Assembly: GCF_903915725.1 (NCBI RefSeq)
Contig: NZ_CAIWTY010000069.1
Span: 1-64,000, forward strand
DNA: 64,000 nucleotides
Reading direction: 5' to 3'
Source: an uncultured Rhodopila sp.
Lineage (GTDB): Bacteria > Pseudomonadota > Alphaproteobacteria > Acetobacterales > Acetobacteraceae
The notes under the pieces were generated by a model. The model searched no databases. It was not told where the DNA came from and saw only the letters and a list, made by a program, of their open reading frames with translations. The position numbers were made by a program, and so were the translations under genes. How positions within the stretch are numbered: position 1 is the stretch's first letter; every line of letters starts with the position of its first letter. Below, one piece after another: positions 1 through 58,365 of this stretch.

Positions 1-1
1 G

Positions 2-112
2 GAAACCGAGGCGTTCCTCCGCTCCGCCTACCACGACATCCCACTCGTCATCCCGGAGATCAGGACGTTCTGGCTGCCTGAGCGGTTACGCGAGGCGAAA
101 GGTCAAGCCTGA
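2..112 (+). CDS. C-terminal end of an unidentified protein (cut by window edge)
   Basis: The frame starting at base 2 is open from the window edge to a TGA at 110-112 and encodes about 36 residues with a plausible amino-acid mix, including LVIPEIRTFW and ending REAKGQA. I do not recognise the family. It runs head-on into the decayed GxxExxY gene on the other strand and overlaps its tail, which suggests that the GxxExxY gene was broken at this junction. It could also be a chance open frame in GC-rich DNA. Confidence 0.3.
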   Translation, partial: ETEAFLRSAYHDIPLVIPEIRTFWLPERLREAKGQA

Positions 113-314
113 ACCCGGGTGGTCCCGCCGCATCGGTTACGATGGTGATGGGATACTGCTGGTCAACGGTCAGGCCGGCCTTGCGCAGTTCATGGACCAA
201 AGCATTTTCGTAGACCTTTTCGAGAAAACCAACGCCGAGCGCGTTGGATACAGTCAGCGCGCAGCCGATGATCTTGTTCGAAAGCTGATCCTCGAAGAGC
301 CTATTCGTGTTCAT
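60..314 (-). pseudogene. GxxExxY family protein, 3'-truncated remnant
   Basis: The first ~60 residues match the GxxExxY family (PF13366), including NKIIGCALTVSNALGVGFLE and then KVYENALVHELRKAGL with the name-giving G-x-x-E-x-x-Y signature. The family normally runs to about 125-135 residues and continues with an R-x-DLLV segment. Here the similarity is lost after ITIVTDAAG, around base 150, and an unrelated tail follows to the stop. The ATG lies inside the atgaacacga repeat unit at 302-334, a placement that recurs in this family. These proteins have no agreed function and are often found in accessory regions. I read this copy as broken. Confidence 0.6.
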
Positions 315-413
315 TTGCGTTCATTCGTGTTTCCGAATCTGCTTGCCCGTCACCGGCGGTGCCAGTTGTGATAAAGCAATGGAAACACGAATGAACACAA
401 ATGAACACGAATA
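302..413. repeat. Inverted repeat of GTGTTCATT/AATGAACAC units
   Basis: Bases 302-334 and 379-413 are near-perfect reverse complements built from 10-base units of the form atgaacac(g/a)a. About 45 bases separate the arms, so the DNA could form a long cruciform. The left arm supplies the start codon of the GxxExxY remnant. The right arm belongs to the direct repeat that flanks the TIR-NACHT gene. Confidence 0.7.
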
Positions 414-420
414 AGTGGAG
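361..420. repeat. Left direct repeat flanking the TIR-NACHT-TPR gene
   Basis: It begins gccagttg, continues aaagcaat, then carries three decamer units (ggaaacacga, atgaacacaa, atgaacacga) and ends ataagtggag. The same order occurs in the same orientation at 3871-3920, with one decamer fewer and about seven substitutions. The repeats bracket the gene closely, as expected for a unit moved or duplicated as a cassette. Confidence 0.75.
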
Positions 421-618
421 TCTGGTTTCGATGGGAGCTTTGTCAATCTCGCGCCGACCGGGCAGGTCGAAGGCCTGCGCCGTTGTCCGGACTGGTCGCG
501 CGAACTGCTGATGCGCCGGGGCGCAAGAAGACTGTACCTCGGCGCATCCATCAATTGACCCTTGCCGCCACCCGCCACCTGTGGAACGATGCGGTTCCGC
601 ACCGCATCGGCGCCGCGC

Positions 619-3600
619 ATGAAGCTGTTCATTTCCTACGGACACGACACCCACCAGAGCTTCGTGCGCCGGATCATGGCCGATTTGACGGAGCACACCT
701 GTTGGATCGACTCCGAGCAGACCCACAAGCAGCCCGACTGGCGCCGCTCCCTGATGGACGCGCTGCATGACTGCGAGTGGACGCTCGGCTTCCTGACGCG
801 ACACTCCATGCGCCCCGGCAGCGTCACGCCGCAGGAACTGGCCATCGCCAACGACGTGAAAGCCGGCTGCCTGACCACCGTGCTGCTCGAACCGCTGGAT
901 GGCTGGCAGGTGCCCGTCGCCGTCGGCCACGCCCAGTGGGTGGACATGAGCGAGTACGCCACAAGCCAGCACGACCCGGCCTGGTACAAGGCCAAACTGG
1001 ACGAGCTGCGCGAGCGCCTCAGCCCGGCCCTGGCCGAAACCTACCGGACCGAGATCGCGGCGCTGACGGACTGGCTCGACCCCGTGCCGCAGCAGGCCGA
1101 CATCGCCCGCTATCTGGACGGCTTTGTGGGCCGCGAGTGGCTGGTGGACATCCTGGACGATTGGCGCCTGAACCGCACCAATACCCGTATGTTCTGGCTG
1201 ACCGGCCTGCCCGGCACCGGCAAGAGCGCGTTCTCCGCCTGGGTCACCACGACCCACCAGGGCAACGCCGTCGCGCTGAACCTGTGCCGCTGGGACCTGA
1301 GGGAACGCTGCGACGCCGCCCGCGTCATCCGCACTCTGGCGTGGTTCGTCGCCCGCCGCGTGCAGGACTACCGCGCGCAACTGCTGCGGCTGATGCGCGG
1401 CTTCGGGCGGGAGGCGCTGGAAAGCACCGACGCGGCGACGCTGTTCGACCGGTTGCTGATCCAGCCTTTGACCCACTGCTTCGACGGCGGACGCACAGCC
1501 GATCGGCTGCTGCTGGTGATCGACGGGCTGGATGAGGCGGTGCCGAAACAGCATCAGGAGGCGCTGCACTCGCTGCTCGACCTGCTGCGCCGCCACGGCC
1601 CCCTGCTGCCGCCCTGGATCGGCCTGCTGGTGACCAGCCGGCCGGAGCAGCCGGCGGGCACCGTGTTCGGCGATCTGCCAATGCTGCGCATCGACGCCGA
1701 TGAGGCGCGGAACCGGGCCGATCTGCGGCTGTATGCGCAGGGCTGGCTCGGCGCGAGCGGGCGGGCGGCGGCGGAGGTCGCGGCGCTGATCGACGCCATC
1801 GACGCCCGCGCCGACGGCAGTTTCATCTATCTGCGCAAGTTGCGGGAGGCGCATGAGAACCGCGGCCTGCCACTGGACAAGGACTCGCTGCCGGACGGGC
1901 TGAACGGGCTCTATGATGAGTGGTTCAGGCGGCAGTTCCCCGATGCGGGGTATTACCGGACTCGGGTCGCTCCGTTGCTGGCGCTGATCCTGGCGGCGGA
2001 GACGCCGGTGCCGGAGGCGGTGCTGGACGCGGCGATGCAGGGCGAGGACGGCTGGGACGAGGTGACCGCCGCGGCAACGCTGCAATCGCTCGGCAGCCTG
2101 TTCGAGAAGCGCGGCGACGGCTGGGCGCCGTTCCACAAGAGTTTGCGGGATTGGCTGACCGGCCGGGAGAAGACGCCTGCCCGGCATCTGGTTCCTGTCG
2201 CGGCCGGCCATGACCGGCTGGCCGCCCTGCTGTGGCGGCAGTTCGTTACGGCGGCAGCCGATCCGGAGGCGGTTCTGTCAGCCTTCTTGCTGCGGGAGTT
2301 GCCCGCCCAGGCCGCAAGCCAGACCGGCGCCACGCGGGCCGACTGGGTGCAAAAGGCCGGCAATTGGTGGTCTTTTCACATGCGCTGCGCAGATACAGTA
2401 CAGATTCTGCGCGATGCCCGCTCTTGGTCAAGCATGCTAGCGTGGTGCACGCTTTCGGACCAACTTGCCACAGGAGCTTCGGAACCGGCGGCCTTGGACC
2501 TTCAACGATGGGTTTCGGTCGAGCGCGGCGACACACTTTGTTTGCTCGGTAAGCTGAGCGCAGCGCTGGGCGCCTACAACGCCGGCCTAGCCGCTCTCGA
2601 GCGCCTCGCCGGACCGGATTATGGCAGCCCTGCTTGGCAGAGGAATTCCTACGTTATCCAAAGCAAAATCGGCGATGTATTGCAAAAACTGGGCGACATG
2701 AGTGGTGCCTTAAAATTCTACTTATCGGTAAGACTTGCTAACGAGCGCATCGCTTCATCCGATCCCAACGTCTTGGAGTGGCAGCGCGATCTATGCGCAA
2801 CCTACGATCGGCTCGGAGCGATGATGCAAATTCTAGGCGACCTAGCCGGCGCACTAGAGGCTTTCAACGCACTTATGACCATAAGCCGACGCCTCGCCGC
2901 AGAAGATCCTGACGACACGAAATTACAACGAGACCTTTCCGTCGCCCATTCCAACATTGGCGACGTACGGCTACGCCAGGGCGATCTGGATGCTGCGCTT
3001 GCCGCCTACCGAATAAGCATGGCGATACGTGAAAGCTTAGCTGAGTCAAATCGCGATAACACAGGGCGCCAGTTTGACTTGTCTATTGGCTATGAGCGTA
3101 TCGGCGATGTGCTGCAAAGCCAGGGACAATTGGACGCTGCCCTCGCCGCACATAATTCCACCATGGCCATTCGCAAGCATTTGGCCGCGCTAGATCCCGA
3201 CAATGTCGATTGGCAGCGCGGACTCTTCGTGTGCTACAATAAGATCAATGATGTGCTTGTACGTCAAGGCGATCTGATAGGTGCGCTAGGGAATTGCCGT
3301 GCCGGTATGACCATTATCGAGCGCCTCGCCGAATCGGATGGTGCTAACATTGAGTGGCAGCGCGACTTGGCGATTTGCAACGACCGTCTTGGGGACGTGC
3401 TACAACTGCAGGGCGACCTAGACGGCGCGTGGCGCGCCACCCAGACCCAAATTAGAATCACAGAGCGCTTGGCAATGTCGGATCGGGCAAATGCCGAATG
3501 GCAACGAGACCTTTCAGTCAGCTACAACAAAATGGGTAGCATACTCAAGCGCAGGGGCATGCTGAATGAGGCGGTGAGTGCGTATCGAGTCGGAATGAAC

Positions 3601-3849
3601 ATCCGAGAGCGCCTCGCGACGTCGGATAGTGACAACGCGCAGTGGCAGCGCGACCTGTTCATCAGTGAAGTCAATATCACGACGCTACTGCTACAAGTCG
3701 GTGACCGACAAGCAGCTTGCTTTGAAGCGCAACGACTGAACGCACAGGCAAGCCTTCTGGTCGACCGCTTTCCACAGGATCGGGAAAGCGAGCGGTACCT
3801 TCGCACCGCCGCGCAGCTGCTCGCGCGGGCCTGCGGGCCCGCCCAATGA
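619..3849 (+). CDS. TIR-NACHT-TPR protein (bacterial NLR-like, probable anti-phage defence)
   Basis: 1076 residues from the ATG chosen because the TIR fold begins there; in-frame ATGs at 562 and 589 are possible but have no better ribosome site. Residues 1-140 form a TIR-like domain: it starts KLFISYGHD, and E73 in the TPQEL segment sits where TIR NADases carry their catalytic Glu. A STAND/NACHT NTPase follows, with Walker A GLPGTGKS (196-203), Walker B LLLVIDGLDE (D302, DE 305-306) and TSRPE at 339-343. The C-terminal third is a regular TPR array. In known relatives the repeats sense a ligand, the NTPase oligomerises and TIR destroys NAD. Codon use is very GC-rich up to about base 2390 and clearly AT-richer beyond, as if sensor and effector halves had different histories. 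Direct repeats flank the gene. Domain calls are firm; the defence role is inferred. Confidence 0.85.
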   Translation: MKLFISYGHDTHQSFVRRIMADLTEHTCWIDSEQTHKQPDWRRSLMDALHDCEWTLGFLTRHSMRPGSVTPQELAIANDVKAGCLTTVLLEPLDGWQVPVAVGHAQWVDMSEYATSQHDPAWYKAKLDELRERLSPALAETYRTEIAALTDWLDPVPQQADIARYLDGFVGREWLVDILDDWRLNRTNTRMFWLTGLPGTGKSAFSAWVTTTHQGNAVALNLCRWDLRERCDAARVIRTLAWFVARRVQDYRAQLLRLMRGFGREALESTDAATLFDRLLIQPLTHCFDGGRTADRLLLVIDGLDEAVPKQHQEALHSLLDLLRRHGPLLPPWIGLLVTSRPEQPAGTVFGDLPMLRIDADEARNRADLRLYAQGWLGASGRAAAEVAALIDAIDARADGSFIYLRKLREAHENRGLPLDKDSLPDGLNGLYDEWFRRQFPDAGYYRTRVAPLLALILAAETPVPEAVLDAAMQGEDGWDEVTAAATLQSLGSLFEKRGDGWAPFHKSLRDWLTGREKTPARHLVPVAAGHDRLAALLWRQFVTAAADPEAVLSAFLLRELPAQAASQTGATRADWVQKAGNWWSFHMRCADTVQILRDARSWSSMLAWCTLSDQLATGASEPAALDLQRWVSVERGDTLCLLGKLSAALGAYNAGLAALERLAGPDYGSPAWQRNSYVIQSKIGDVLQKLGDMSGALKFYLSVRLANERIASSDPNVLEWQRDLCATYDRLGAMMQILGDLAGALEAFNALMTISRRLAAEDPDDTKLQRDLSVAHSNIGDVRLRQGDLDAALAAYRISMAIRESLAESNRDNTGRQFDLSIGYERIGDVLQSQGQLDAALAAHNSTMAIRKHLAALDPDNVDWQRGLFVCYNKINDVLVRQGDLIGALGNCRAGMTIIERLAESDGANIEWQRDLAICNDRLGDVLQLQGDLDGAWRATQTQIRITERLAMSDRANAEWQRDLSVSYNKMGSILKRRGMLNEAVSAYRVGMNIRERLATSDSDNAQWQRDLFISEVNITTLLLQVGDRQAACFEAQRLNAQASLLVDRFPQDRESERYLRTAAQLLARACGPAQ
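2635..3786 (+). repeat. Eight tandem 144-bp coding repeats (48-residue TPR units)
   Basis: Trp-Gln-Arg-Asp-Leu-like units recur with exact 144-base spacing at 2635, 2779, 2923, 3067, 3211, 3355, 3499 and 3643, without a single indel. The consensus is WQRDLSxxYxxxGDVLxxQG followed by DLxxALAAYRxxMxIxERLA and an acidic linker. The copies differ at many positions, so the array is old or under diversifying change. Confidence 0.8.
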
Positions 3850-3870
3850 TTCACCGATTCTGGACCCGCA

Positions 3871-3920
3871 GCCAGTTGACGCAAAGCAATAGAAACACAA
3901 ATGAACACAAATAAGTCGAA
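3871..3920. repeat. Right direct repeat flanking the TIR-NACHT-TPR gene
   Basis: It starts 21 bases after the stop codon of the TIR-NACHT gene with gccagttg, then aaagcaat, agaaacacaa, atgaacacaa and ataagtcgaa. This matches 361-420 in the same direction, lacking one decamer. No transposase or inverted terminal repeat is visible next to it. Confidence 0.75.
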
Positions 3921-4010
3921 GCCGGATTTAGGGAGCGCGCCGTCGCGACGGCCAGGTTGTGCAGATCATGCGCCGCGTTTGCGAACGCCTCGTTGCGGGG
4001 ATGGTGCTAG

Positions 4011-4628
4011 CTAGCCCGAATCGTGAGGTCTGAGTCTGCTTTGGATCAACCGTGCCATCGGCCGATGATCCTGTTTGATGAAGCCAACGCGCGACGCCTC
4101 GTTCCACCGCTTCCTGTCGCGGGAACCAAGTTCGAGATCGAACCCTGCATGATCCGCCAGCATACGAAGCCAGAAGCGTTGCGTTCTCCCGTTGCCGTCG
4201 ATGAAAGGATGACACGCATTTATCTCATTGGCGTATCGCGCTGCCCCGGTGGCGAAATCTTGCGTGCTCCGTGCGATCAGGTAGTCATCACGCGCGAGCT
4301 GCCCGAACAGGTCTTCCATCCAACGCCTGATATACTCCGGGACAGCAAATGGCACCGAGCTTCTGCCTGTCGTATAGTTCCTTTCCCGCCCTGCCCATTC
4401 GTAAAGGTCTTGAAACAGATGGCGATGAATTGCCTTGAATCCCGCGTAGGTTCTATGATGGGCGCGGGCGGGAAATCCTTCGGCGGCACGGTCTTCGGTC
4501 AAGCGGCGTTCGGTTGCCTCAAGAATCGTCCGGTCTCGAATGCCGAACTTGTTGATGTAGACGTCGCTTTCCTCATAGAAAGTTCGACGATAGGTTTCGC
4601 GTTCATGCGCAGTCCGAAGATAGCTCAC
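4011..4628 (-). CDS. fic: Fic family toxin (AMP-transferase)
   Basis: 205 residues with the full Fic active-site loop HPFIDGNGRTQR at 140-151 (HPFxxGNGR; H140 is the catalytic base) and the upstream YAGFKAIHRHLFQDLYEWAG helix typical of VbhT/Fic toxins. Fic proteins transfer AMP, or more rarely other groups, from a nucleotide to hydroxyls of target proteins such as gyrase and topoisomerase IV. The start is a GTG that overlaps the antitoxin stop (GTGA), so the two are translationally coupled. No separate promoter is visible. The intact motif predicts an active enzyme if it is not restrained by the neighbour. Target unknown. Confidence 0.9.
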   Translation of the reverse strand: MSYLRTAHERETYRRTFYEESDVYINKFGIRDRTILEATERRLTEDRAAEGFPARAHHRTYAGFKAIHRHLFQDLYEWAGRERNYTTGRSSVPFAVPEYIRRWMEDLFGQLARDDYLIARSTQDFATGAARYANEINACHPFIDGNGRTQRFWLRMLADHAGFDLELGSRDRKRWNEASRVGFIKQDHRPMARLIQSRLRPHDSG

Positions 4629-4864
4629 GACCCTCCCGATTTGGGAGTCTGACGCATTTGAACATATGCTTTAAGCTTAGCAATCCGCTGGCCCGGGCCA
4701 AGGCCAGCCGTTTCCATGTCGGCGGCAAATCGATCGATTCCGGCGTCACGGTGCAAGCCCTCGATGTCGGCATCAACCCGCGCCTGTTGCGCCCGCCACG
4801 CCGCGTCCGCGGGATTCCGGCTGTGCAGGCGGTCTATATGCCTGGCAGGGGCGGATCTAACCAT
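4625..4864 (-). CDS. VbhA-like antitoxin of the Fic pair
   Basis: 79 residues. The ATG overlaps the lepA stop (TGATG) and the gene ends in a 4-base overlap with fic. Small class I Fic antitoxins carry an inhibitory (S/T)xxxE(G/N) helix that blocks ATP in the toxin. Here residues 31-37 read DADIEGL: the Glu-Gly is present (E35, G36) but the Ser/Thr position is Asp. The order antitoxin-then-toxin, the size and the EGL helix support the call. Whether Asp31 still holds the toxin in check cannot be read from sequence. Both genes appear to depend on lepA read-through transcription. Confidence 0.65.
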   Translation of the reverse strand: MVRSAPARHIDRLHSRNPADAAWRAQQARVDADIEGLHRDAGIDRFAADMETAGLGPGQRIAKLKAYVQMRQTPKSGGS

Positions 4865-6669
4865 CACGCATCCATCTTCAACGCCGCCAGGAACGCCGAC
4901 TGCGGGATCTCCACCTTCCCGAACTGCCGCATCCGCTTCTTGCCTTCCTTCTGCTTCTCCAGCAGCTTCCGCTTCCGCGAAATATCGCCCCCATAACACT
5001 TCGCCGTCACATCCTTCGACAGCGCGCTGATCGTCTCGCGCGCCACCACGCGGCTGCCAATCGCCGCCTGGATGGCGATCTTGAACAACTGCTTCGGGAT
5101 CAGATCCTTCAGCCGGGCGCAAATCTGCCGCCCGCGGTTCTCCGCCGCCGCCCGGTGCGCGATGAACGACAAAGCGTCCACCAGATCGCCGTTCACCAGG
5201 ATGGAAATCCGCACCAGGTCGCTCTCGGCATACCCGTCCATCGCGTAATCGAACGAAGCATACCCCCGCGACACCGACTTCAGCCGATCGTAGAAATCGA
5301 ACACGACCTCATTCAGCGGGATGCGGTAGACCGCCATCGCCCGGTTACCCACATACGTCAGGTCCACCTGCTGGCCCCGCCGCTCCGTGCACAGCCCCAG
5401 CACGCTGCCGAGATACTCGTCCGGCACCATGATCGTCGCCTTGATCCAAGGCTCCTCGACATGGTCCACCACCGATCCATCCGGCATGTCCACCGGGTTG
5501 TGCAACTCCTGCATCTCCCCGCTGGTCTTGAAGATATGGTAGACCACCGATGGCGCCGTCGCGATCAGATCCAAATCGAACTCGCGCGTCAGCCGCTCCT
5601 GGATGATCTCCAGGTGCAGCAGCCCGAGGAACCCGCAGCGGAACCCGAAGCCCAGCGCCGCCGACGTCTCCGGCTCATAATGGAAGCTGGCGTCGTTCAG
5701 CCGCAGCTTGCCCAGGCTGTCGCGCAGCTTCTCAAAATCATCCGCGTCGATCGGGTACAGCCCGCACCACACCACCGGGATGGAGGGCTTGAACCCGGGC
5801 AGGGCCTCCGTCGCCGGCACCCGGTCGTCGGTGATCGTGTCGCCGACATTGCAGTCCGCCACCGTCTTGATCGCAGCCGTAATGAACCCGATTTCCCCCG
5901 GCCCAAGGTCGTCCATCGGCACCATCTTGGGCGTGAACACACCCACCTGCTCGACCACGTGGACGGCGCCGGACGACATCATGCGGATGCGCTGGCCGCG
6001 CTTGAGCCGCCCGTCCTTGATCCGCACCAGGATCACCACGCCGAGGTACTGGTCGTACCAGCTATCCACCAGCAGCGCCTTCAGCGGCGCGTTGCCATCG
6101 CCCTTCGGCGCCGGCAGGCGGGTCACCAGGGCCTCCAGCACGCCCTCGATATTCAGGCCCGTCTTGGCGCTGATCTCCACCGCGTCGGAGGTGTCCAGGC
6201 CGATGACGTCCTCGATCTGCTGCTTGACCCGCTCCGTCTCCGCCGCCGGCAGGTCGATCTTGTTCAGGATCGGCACGATCTCATGGTTGGCCTCGATCGC
6301 CTGGTAGACATTCGCCAGAGTTTGCGCCTCGACGCCCTGGGAGGCATCCACCACCAGCAGGCTGCCTTCGCAGGCGGCCAGGCTGCGGCTGACTTCATAG
6401 GCGAAGTCAACGTGGCCGGGCGTGTCCATCAGGTTAAGCTCATACGTGATCCCGTCCTTGGCGGTGTAGCTCAGCCGGACGGTCTGCGCCTTGATGGTGA
6501 TGCCGCGTTCCTTCTCCAGCTCCATGCTGTCCAGCACCTGGCTGGTCATCTCCCGCGCGGTCAGCCCGCCCGTGTGCTGGATCAGTCGATCGGCCAGGGT
6601 GGATTTCCCGTGGTCGATATGGGCGATGATGGAGAAGTTGCGGATTCGCTCGATGGGGGTGTCGGTCAT
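4864..6669 (-). CDS. lepA: Elongation factor 4 (LepA), ribosome-associated GTPase
   Basis: 601 residues, full length. G1 motif AHIDHGKS near the N-terminus, G3 DTPGH and G4 NKID are all present, followed by the EF-G-like domains and the LepA-specific C-terminal domain ([20 protein letters not shown] and the Lys-rich [18 protein letters not shown]). The start at [12 protein letters not shown] was chosen over an upstream ATG because LepA proteins begin a few residues before the I-R-N-F-x-I-I-A-H segment. EF4 acts on stalled or mistranslocated ribosomes. The stop overlaps the antitoxin start, so this core gene carries the Fic pair as a tail. The COQ9 and def genes lie upstream on the same strand. 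Confidence 0.97.
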
Positions 6670-6733
6670 GGGCCTGCGCTGTTGACCGGCGGCGGGGACG
6701 ACGGCCGGAGTTGCCGCAGAGATAGAGAGTCCG

Positions 6734-7375
6734 TCACCCCGTGTCACCCATTCGTAGTTTGCCCGGCCGCGGGAACTTGTCGAGGAACTTGTCCACGCGG
6801 GCGCGTATCCGGCGCACGCGGCCGAGGCCGGCCAGCCGCCGATCGAGGAACTCCAGCGTGGCGGCGTCGTCTTCCGACGAATCGCGCAGCCAATACAGCA
6901 GGGTGGTCGTGTAGATCCCCGCCAGGATCGCCCGCTTGGTGTACCAACTGAAATCGGCAGACCGATCGCCGGCCGCGTGCAGGATGGCGTCCACCGTCCG
7001 CGCGGTAACCGCTGTTGCCGCCTTGGCGTTGCGCGGCAGGGCCAGCACCGCCAGGGCGCGGCGGATGGCTTCCTTGTGCGGCCGGTTCTGCTCGAGCCTT
7101 AACGCGATCACCGCGCGCACCCGCGCCGGCAGCCGCGTCTCCCTCACCAACCCCTCCGCCCCCTCTTCCATCCGCCGATCGGCCAGGTCGGAGAAGGTCT
7201 CGATCATGTCCACGGCGCCGAGGGGGAACAGCAGATCGGCTTCATCCGCCGGCATGCCGGCATCGCGAACGCCGGCTTTCAGCGCGCGCTTGGTCCAGCC
7301 GTCGAAGGCGATGTGAGGCAGCATCGCCTCGATCGCCTGGTCGCGTTCCGGCAGCCGTTCGGGGGGTGCGATCAT
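6734..7375 (-). CDS. COQ9 family protein (ubiquinone biosynthesis accessory)
   Basis: 213 residues matching the COQ9 family (PF08511): an N-terminal helical half with [18 protein letters not shown], and a C-terminal half with [20 protein letters not shown], the segment that forms the lipid-binding surface and meets COQ7. In mitochondria and alphaproteobacteria COQ9 presents quinone intermediates to the hydroxylases. It starts 3 bases after the def stop, so def and this gene are one transcript, and 64 bases separate it from lepA. Confidence 0.88.
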
Positions 7376-11853: not shown

Positions 11854-11928
11854 ACCGCTGCGGCTGCCAGGAGACCTGCCGTATACCAACCGACCGTGAC
11901 GTTTACCCATAGGCATGATCGCTTCTAC

Positions 11929-12035
11929 CGTCATGGCGGGCGAAGGCCCGCCATCCACGACTTTATTTGTGCGGGCAAAAAGGCGTGGATGCCAACCGCC
12001 GGCCTTCGCCGGGGCAGGCTCCGTCGGCATGACGA
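11929..12035. repeat. Dispersed palindromic repeat, family A (full-length copy)
   Basis: It runs from gtcatggcgggcgaagg through gcccgccatccacg, a short variable centre and aaggcgtggatg to the closing catgacgagg, so it folds on itself. Related full copies lie at 17269-17357 and 41746-41833, with partial ones at 9829-9862, 24443, 31224, 51546, 55522 and 56200. Confidence 0.75.
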
Positions 12036-58184: not shown

Positions 58185-58207
58185 TCAGGTCCCATGATAA
58201 CGACCCG

Positions 58208-58308
58208 TCCCTCCGCCGGCATGACCCGGTTCAGGTTAAAGGGTCATCGCACCGCCGGTTGGTCCGGCTTTACGCGATATCTCAGCCCCGTCGGCGGGAC
58301 ACCCCTCG
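58208..58308 (-). ncRNA. TPP riboswitch (THI element) controlling thiC
   Basis: Read on the minus strand it starts gaggggtgtcccgcc, contains ctgagat, then the thi box ACCCTTTAACCTGAACC, GGGTCATGCC, and ends GGCGGAGGGA. Order and spacing match the thiamine pyrophosphate aptamer. It lies 72 bases from the thiC ATG, so TPP probably shuts off thiC translation or transcription. Confidence 0.93.
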
Positions 58309-58365
58309 GCAATTCCGCAAGATGCGGCGGCCTAGTCGGTGTGTCAAATCAGAGAAAGGTGGTTT

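Follow-up and report, generated by a model that had tools for sequence, protein, structure and literature searches.

Near the start of a 64,000-nucleotide stretch from an uncultured Rhodopila sp. (assembly GCF_903915725.1, contig NZ_CAIWTY010000069.1, positions 1 to 64,000; this whole stretch is referred to as the window), a gene for a bacterial NLR-like protein lies between two short repeats of the same direction. The protein (562-3849, + strand, 1095 aa, assigned by Pfam matches) joins a TIR domain, a NACHT/NPHP3-type ATPase and TPR repeats. It is fairly probable that the repeats are the surviving ends of dispersed elements built on arrays of a 10-bp unit (decamer) and tied to genes of the GxxExxY family, and that the NLR gene arrived between two older elements of this kind. 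The main result reaches beyond the NLR gene, in that decamer-ended elements associated with GxxExxY nucleases are probably mobile. Throughout, C denotes a contig of this genome (C69 is the window contig), G a genome (G000 is this one) and L a locus.

The two repeats align in two registers, 361-402 with 3871-3912 (86% identity over 42 nt) and 394-428 with 3894-3928 (83% over 35 nt). They share eight 11-mers, while only 3 of 2000 block shuffles share one or more, and a two-decamer pattern with up to three mismatches finds 2 matches in the window (0.00 expected). A reading of the window from sequence only had described the same ordered blocks at 361-420 and 3871-3920, in the same direction, and these are real and beyond chance. 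It had also set one repeat directly at each end of the gene. The repeats do flank the open reading frame (ORF) 562-3849, the left one ~130 bp before it and the right one 21 bp after it; the right copy is one decamer shorter, the repeat is dispersed genome-wide, and a third, inverted copy at 302-334 was overlooked. This third copy and 381-413 form a palindrome (302-413 overall) with 33-nt arms that are 97% complementary. Its inner arm (302-334, - strand) holds the inverted decamer unit, its 46-nt loop (335-380) is similar in C61 of this genome and in a related genome, G171, and its outer arm (381-432, + strand) consists of the decamers at 381-413 and a short outer tail. The left repeat is this outer arm of a GxxExxY-associated palindrome, and the right repeat (3871-3930, + strand) is a lone arm, or half palindrome, with an outer tail.

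The same repeat is found throughout the genome. In the 6.7 Mb, the two-decamer pattern with up to two mismatches has 37 matches (19 forward and 18 reverse), and the reversed-pattern control has 0. These matches fall into 12 sites: four head-to-head palindromes (C18, C45, C61 and C69), six tail-to-tail palindromes (C26, C73, C87, C90, C92 and C95, some with one degenerate arm), the lone arm at 3871-3930, and C36, which has one matching array and, ~170 bp away, a short end in the opposite orientation that lies behind a different decamer array. Inverted short repeats in dispersed pairs, the kind of arrangement known from REPINs, are present in this genome. Only the two sites on the window contig share a contig; the other ten each have a contig to themselves and enclose nothing there. 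A GxxExxY gene adjoins three of the four head-to-head palindromes, open at C45, decayed at C61 and split at C69. Of 150 genomes drawn evenly from the family, one other member of the genus among them, only this genome showed the pattern with up to one mismatch; in the search of the genus, repeat-like matches were also seen in G171, G177 and G153. The C36 site (L189, ~2840-2965) shows a tandem array of the TCTGCGTTCA-type decamer inside a AATGAACAC-type palindrome, as if one element type had inserted into another.

In the window, the gene linked to the palindrome is the N-terminal half of a GxxExxY (TIGR04256 / PF13366 PDDEXK_3) gene at 141-314 (- strand), whose first codons lie within the repeat arm. 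It is recognized by profile matches of ORF 60-314 (- strand; PF13366 56.1 bits, TIGR04256 57.1 bits), and open homologues of it occur at C45 and L104. An IS66-family element interrupts the gene at 141. The contig begins inside this element, whose right end is 1-141 (+ strand, 94% identical to C62:3325-3465), and C62 encodes TnpB_IS66, DDE_Tnp_IS66 and UPF0149 proteins. The end of C105 carries the other half of the GxxExxY gene, followed by the left end of an element of this kind, with an 8-bp direct repeat common to both junctions. Because gene halves, element ends and the 8-bp repeat match up, we strongly infer that C105 and the window contig are neighbours joined by the IS66-family element, an adjacency that is not given by the assembly. 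The IS66-family element is a separate insertion, later than the GxxExxY element.

Relatives show how the two repeats and the NLR gene stand to one another. The genus was searched in 33 genomes, with the best nine candidate places scored in each and 40 places in the two nearest, G171 and G177 (also handled as G150 and G151), which are metagenome-assembled genomes (MAGs) titled uncultured Rhodopila sp. Among the best nine places per genome, lepA is matched in 31 of the 33, and the NLR DNA is confined to this genome, with matches of only ~40-190 bp in the other 32. Protein relatives of the NLR occur in 14 of 150 family genomes, and a full-length match in this genome only. The idea that the NLR gene is a variable piece is borne out by these counts. 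In the flank beside lepA, a tRNA-Ser(GGA) gene is present in 14 of 25 loci scanned (of 30 returned) and missing from 11, including this genome, G171, G177, G153 and G168; the NLR side of lepA is therefore variable and lies next to a tRNA gene in many relatives. The evidence supports the NLR gene as a variable, lineage-specific gain beside lepA.

Each flanking repeat exists in a different relative that lacks the NLR gene. The match of G177 to the window begins at 3889 and takes in fic and lepA. Its lone repeat is one decamer longer than the right repeat of the window; upstream of this repeat are a Bro-N protein and a tannase, and the left flank of G177 is unrelated to that of this genome. Beyond the array, 107 of 117 columns are common to the right repeat and G177. 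G171 carries an open GxxExxY gene and the same palindrome (93% over window positions 141-430) ~1.9 kb from lepA; where the window has the NLR gene and fic, G171 has a PIN-domain protein and an ORF that matches no Pfam family. The outer flank of the left repeat does not match G171 (63 of 111 columns), though palindrome and gene do. Decamer arrays were seen in 2 of 30 lepA loci, those of this genome and G177; the C105 flank, followed into the relatives, runs into another gene in G177 and has no array there, nor in G171. Since each repeat occurs in a different relative without the NLR, both probably predate it, and on parsimony the repeats came first and the NLR followed. The two also look like two older elements rather than a duplication made by the arrival of the NLR, because their unique flanks differ. 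A target-site duplication or recombination scars of the NLR gene were considered as the origin of the repeats and are not the leading reading, each repeat being found without the NLR in a different relative.

Inverted decamer ends are found around many GxxExxY genes. In 6 of 30 GxxExxY loci (L298, L301, L303, L309, L310 and L313, the last being the same place as L301), CACGAAT arrays lie on one side of the gene and their reverse complement on the other. Early array tests beside these genes looked poor because they sought long arrays or one unit, and they were replaced by a unit-free test that takes the best inverted repeat (IR) between the 150 bp before and the 150 bp after each of 38 distinct GxxExxY genes. 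At the threshold of 16.5, the 95th percentile of mismatched pairs, 23 of the 38 genes score, against 0 of 102 outward-shifted windows of the same loci and 73 of 1406 mismatched pairs; at 14 or above the counts are 27, 5 and 127. A few long alignments in this sample run through neighbouring copies (L090). The ends of the 23 have a lag-10 self-match of 0.47, compared with 0.23-0.32 at other lags from 5 to 15, as expected of units of ~10 bp. The genes with such ends span at least three phyla, and unit types differ between copies (CACGAAT-, CGCAGAT-, CACAGAG-, CGCAGAG-, ACAGGAT- and CACAAAA-type).

With ends set by hand, the copies in this genome measure 469 bp (C26), 441 bp (C16), 441 bp (C87) and 488 bp (C7); those of C16, which was outside the IR test, and C87 contain a stop codon. 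Copies of the subtype seen in the window are organized differently, the palindrome of L104 and of the C45 copy being on the 5' side, and the units of C45, C61, G171 and G177 (the last with a deletion) can be aligned between the outer arm and a point shortly after the stop codon. Gene-less copies also occur beside gene-holding ones. For example, L303 (Acidobacteria, 600-2050) has several gene-less decamer-ended copies in a row and one GxxExxY copy, separated by ~60-bp direct repeats; read by eye, the two kinds share decamer ends and flanking sequence, as do miniature inverted-repeat transposable elements (MITEs) and their longer relatives. In L298 and L301 (Hydrogenophilales and Burkholderiales MAGs), the GxxExxY element lies between the same two genes, presumably an ABC-transporter ATPase and permease.

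One element could be followed as a present or absent block. The flanks of four elements of this genome were searched in the 33 genus genomes; nine had matches and eight were comparable at the C7 site. The site is filled in this genome, in G171, in G177 (with an internal deletion) and in G153 (where ~3 kb of other DNA separates the left flank from the element), and contiguous and element-free in G168, G169, G158 and G099. Carriers show lepA identities of 95, 95 and 89% and genomes with an empty site 89, 87, 86 and 85%, and because of these values one gain is the simplest reading, with loss as a possibility. A direct repeat of ~12-16 bp surrounds the insertion, not abutting the inverted repeats. 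The insertion is old, and its exact ends are therefore blurred. The other three flank pairs were matched in this genome only, apart from short partial matches.

Decamer arrays are also known from distant genomes. In a collection of 84,980 species, a triple decamer was found in 30 stretches, ten in the two Rhodopila MAGs and 20 elsewhere, including Verrucomicrobia, Acidobacteria, Nitrosomonas, Zetaproteobacteria, Cloacimonadota, Anaerolineae and a Methanotrichaceae archaeon. Several are tail-to-tail palindromes when read by eye (e.g., L094, L100 and L112). Eighteen genomes stand for 18 of the 20 other stretches (L111, from the same MAG as L103, and L116 were left out), and 16 of these 18 have PF13366 matches compared with 3 of 14 control genomes; among the 16, the match in G193 is short and weak, and some others are broken by stops. 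In a Terriglobia chromosome (G195), a repeat that reaches ~1.3 kb is present at thirteen loci (L354-L366); it carries a GxxExxY fragment among complex nested repeats, with another decamer type seen by eye, and its main aligned segments are 91-98% identical to L355.

Two candidate sources of the elements were rejected. For phages, scans with the protein gave 0 and 3 relatives, and none of 37 viral stretches with triple heptamers held a GxxExxY gene; the three viral relatives have IR scores of 28, 16.5 and 23.5, with decamer-like ends only in L394. For plasmids, the palindrome had no match in 72,556 records, the GxxExxY protein was present in 8, and a typed 40-nt decamer query found no match.

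The protein itself has the features of a nuclease. Five aligned GxxExxY sequences keep E32, D71, K83, Q95 and Y99, with E81 changed to D in one, which fits the motif order E-D-ExK-QxxxY of Cas4/RecB-type nucleases. A structure model of the L104 protein has a mean pLDDT of 93.6 (a first model from a single sequence, with pLDDT 35, was discarded). Compared with the PDB, it matches four chains at E <= 0.001, SSO0001 (presumably a Cas4 protein) three times and LHK-Exo, with lambda exonuclease next at 2e-3; matches of the Cas4/lambda-exonuclease type range from E 4e-4 to 1e-2 with TM-scores of 0.40-0.55, and other PD-(D/E)XK-like folds (tRNA splicing endonuclease, Holliday resolvase) follow with weaker E. 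Among viral structure models, the best named match is the PD-(D/E)XK nuclease of Halogranum tailed virus 1. A PDB search by sequence only gave nothing convincing (best E 0.07). The model supports the prediction of GxxExxY as a Cas4/lambda-exonuclease-like PD-(D/E)XK nuclease, and not a DDE or HuH transposase. No DDE transposase was found between the decamer ends of gene-holding copies, and no HuH (Y1) transposase linked to the repeats, the linked gene being that of TIGR04256/PF13366; RAYT genes elsewhere in the genome were not searched.

A mechanism can be proposed on this basis. The predicted GxxExxY nuclease would bind the iterated decamers at both ends of its element and cut there, and would mobilize its own ~450-bp element as well as gene-less palindromes in trans, much as RAYTs are thought to move REPINs. 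At the window locus, the left repeat is the outer palindrome arm before a GxxExxY gene that was later split by the IS66-family element, and the right repeat is a lone arm that was probably already beside fic-lepA; the NLR gene probably arrived in this lineage between both older elements, at the variable site next to lepA. The repeat family, its tie to GxxExxY, the inverted decamer ends and one site seen both filled and empty are direct observations. Binding, cutting and active transposition, like a movement of the NLR gene independent of the repeats, are what we infer from these arrangements. A wider proposal, which we put forward tentatively and at somewhat less than even chances, is that GxxExxY genes form a new minimal class of mobile element, widespread in bacteria, in which a ~130-aa Cas4-like PD-(D/E)XK nuclease between terminal inverted repeats of subfamily-specific 10-bp units moves itself (~440-490 bp, among the smallest autonomous elements) and gene-less palindromes, seeding recombination sites for the exchange of NLR-like genes.

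Several observations weigh against this view. The C7 insertion is ~554 bp long, reaching 16 and ~50 bp past the inverted repeats, and has no clear target-site duplication. For the dispersed palindromes (14 sites, 13 of them included in a joined-flank search and six compared with the regions of relatives) no clean empty site was found, the six being synteny breaks or partial matches; at C92 and C95, for example, one flank differs. Orthology of the G171 site is indicated only by gene, palindrome and distance to lepA, the flanks being different. Most of the 38 genes tested for inverted repeats belong to this genus or to genomes selected for a single array type, and there are relatives among them (8 pairs more than 70% identical). 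Fifteen of the 38 are below the threshold. They include the C82, C86 and C87 genes of this genome (7.5, 6 and 15.0) and every one of the five genus copies that are of the window's subtype or near it (L104, L121, L006, L191 and L123), which lack such a 3' end. Finally, a profile of five proteins of this genome finds a GxxExxY gene in only 2 of the 30 triple-decamer stretches, and the viral triple-heptamer stretches have none.

The alternative that survives best, itself unlikely, takes the old dispersed palindromes as passive homology for rearrangements, with the flanks, including that of the NLR gene, joined to fic-lepA by recombination between loci. Synteny with G177 does break off at the right repeat, and the left flanks of sites C36 and C87 adjoin each other in G177 with no decamer array there. 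These are the only two such cases, and passive substrates leave the inverted decamers on both sides of GxxExxY genes unexplained. When a reciprocal junction was sought, the ~4.4 kb of G177 next to its repeat matched nothing in this genome under the limit applied.

Decamer arrays might instead be operator sites of an autoregulated GxxExxY nuclease, e.g., a defence or repair gene, rather than transposon ends. The GxxExxY genes start in or beside arrays, and iterated 10-bp sites would suit cooperative binding; inverted arrays on both sides of 23 of the 38 genes, dispersed gene-less palindromes, and an element that is present or absent as a block make the operator role improbable. Of similarly low probability is a mobilization of decamer-ended elements in trans by another transposase, with GxxExxY along for the ride. 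It would accommodate the 15 genes without ends by the IR measure and an enzyme whose catalysis is predicted only. Against it, the ends that go with GxxExxY genes in at least three phyla differ in sequence, as for a partner, and elements of 441-488 bp leave little room for other genes.

The weakest explanation is the one offered by the sequence-only reading, in which the NLR gene and one repeat move, or are lost, as a cassette by homologous recombination between the direct repeats; the repeats do bracket the gene in the same direction, the NLR DNA is missing from the 32 other genus genomes, and the predicted locus with a single repeat in place of the gene has a counterpart in G177 as far as its one repeat, its right flank (fic and lepA) and its lack of the NLR go, yet the left flank there is unrelated, which makes it no simple excision product, the unique flanks of the two repeats differ, with that of the right one common to G177, and no empty site with both flanks joined by one repeat was seen among the genus-search matches or in the regions read of the two nearest relatives. 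Ends that belong to a dispersed family, each found in a relative without the NLR, are hard to maintain as the recombination ends of a cassette, and the movement without a mobility gene that had been proposed fits poorly with a repeat family that seems to have its own, GxxExxY. The repeats are a true observation and the cassette mechanism is doubtful.

The favoured elements, decamer-ended and tied to GxxExxY, resemble known systems in part. As far as the accessible parts of the REPIN/RAYT (TnpA-REP) literature go, both consist of dispersed short inverted repeats, paired or single, some of which have one small nuclease gene next to them; the partner here is a PD-(D/E)XK nuclease of TIGR04256 rather than a HuH tyrosine transposase, and the arms are iterated 10-bp units, different in several phyla, rather than REP hairpins. 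Like MITEs of DDE insertion sequences, gene-less inverted-repeat elements occur beside longer gene-holding copies with similar ends; unlike them, the elements have no DDE transposase, no clear target-site duplication, and ends of iterated decamers. Cas4, lambda exonuclease and RecB-type PD-(D/E)XK nucleases share the predicted fold and the motif order E...D...ExK...QxxxY, whereas GxxExxY is a stand-alone protein of ~127 aa with its gene often between inverted repeats. GxxExxY/PDDEXK_3 proteins are recognized by NCBI and Pfam models. In the literature that could be searched, most subscription papers and preprints lying outside it, no mention of TIGR04256 was found, and the partial texts returned for GxxExxY, PF13366 and PDDEXK_3 gave no role and nothing on mobility. 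Six decamer strings typical of the ends appeared there only in papers on connexin 26 and optic cup morphogenesis, by title not bacterial.

The NLR protein has matches to TIR_2, NPHP3_N, AAA_16, NACHT, HTH_TANC1 and TPR_12. TIR, NACHT-type ATPase and TPR domains in one protein are shared with bacterial defence proteins of the TIR-STAND/NLR-like class; it differs in that PADLOC gives a weak TPR match only, and no named defence system can be assigned. The gene is a mosaic in composition, with third-position GC of 0.86-0.92 in the TIR-NACHT part (to ~2370) and 0.56-0.66 afterwards, as if the TPR half had another origin.

Downstream of the right repeat, and kept with it in G177, is a Fic/Doc-domain protein (4011-4628, - strand; PF02661 61.2 bits) that matches the PADLOC candidate PDC-S04 (176.9 bits). 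Its start is overlapped by a small upstream ORF without Pfam match (4625-4864, - strand, part of ORF 4625-5122), a possible antitoxin, and the pair (4011-4864) is toxin-antitoxin-like. The conserved anchor of the site (4864-6747, - strand) is presumably lepA. Elsewhere in the window, Rfam at the gathering threshold gave only three tRNAs and a TPP riboswitch (58191-58316). A hairpin-rich repeat (GTCATGGCGGGC...GGCGTGGATGCC) lies at 11914-12030, and a similar-looking copy in C105 matches dozens of places in G171 and G177.

One lesson of this locus is that a defence gene can be flanked by direct repeats that are not its own ends. If GxxExxY is a mobility enzyme, the dispersed repeats of several phyla would gain an origin, a stand-alone Cas4-like nuclease would gain a function, and a very small DNA transposition system would become testable.

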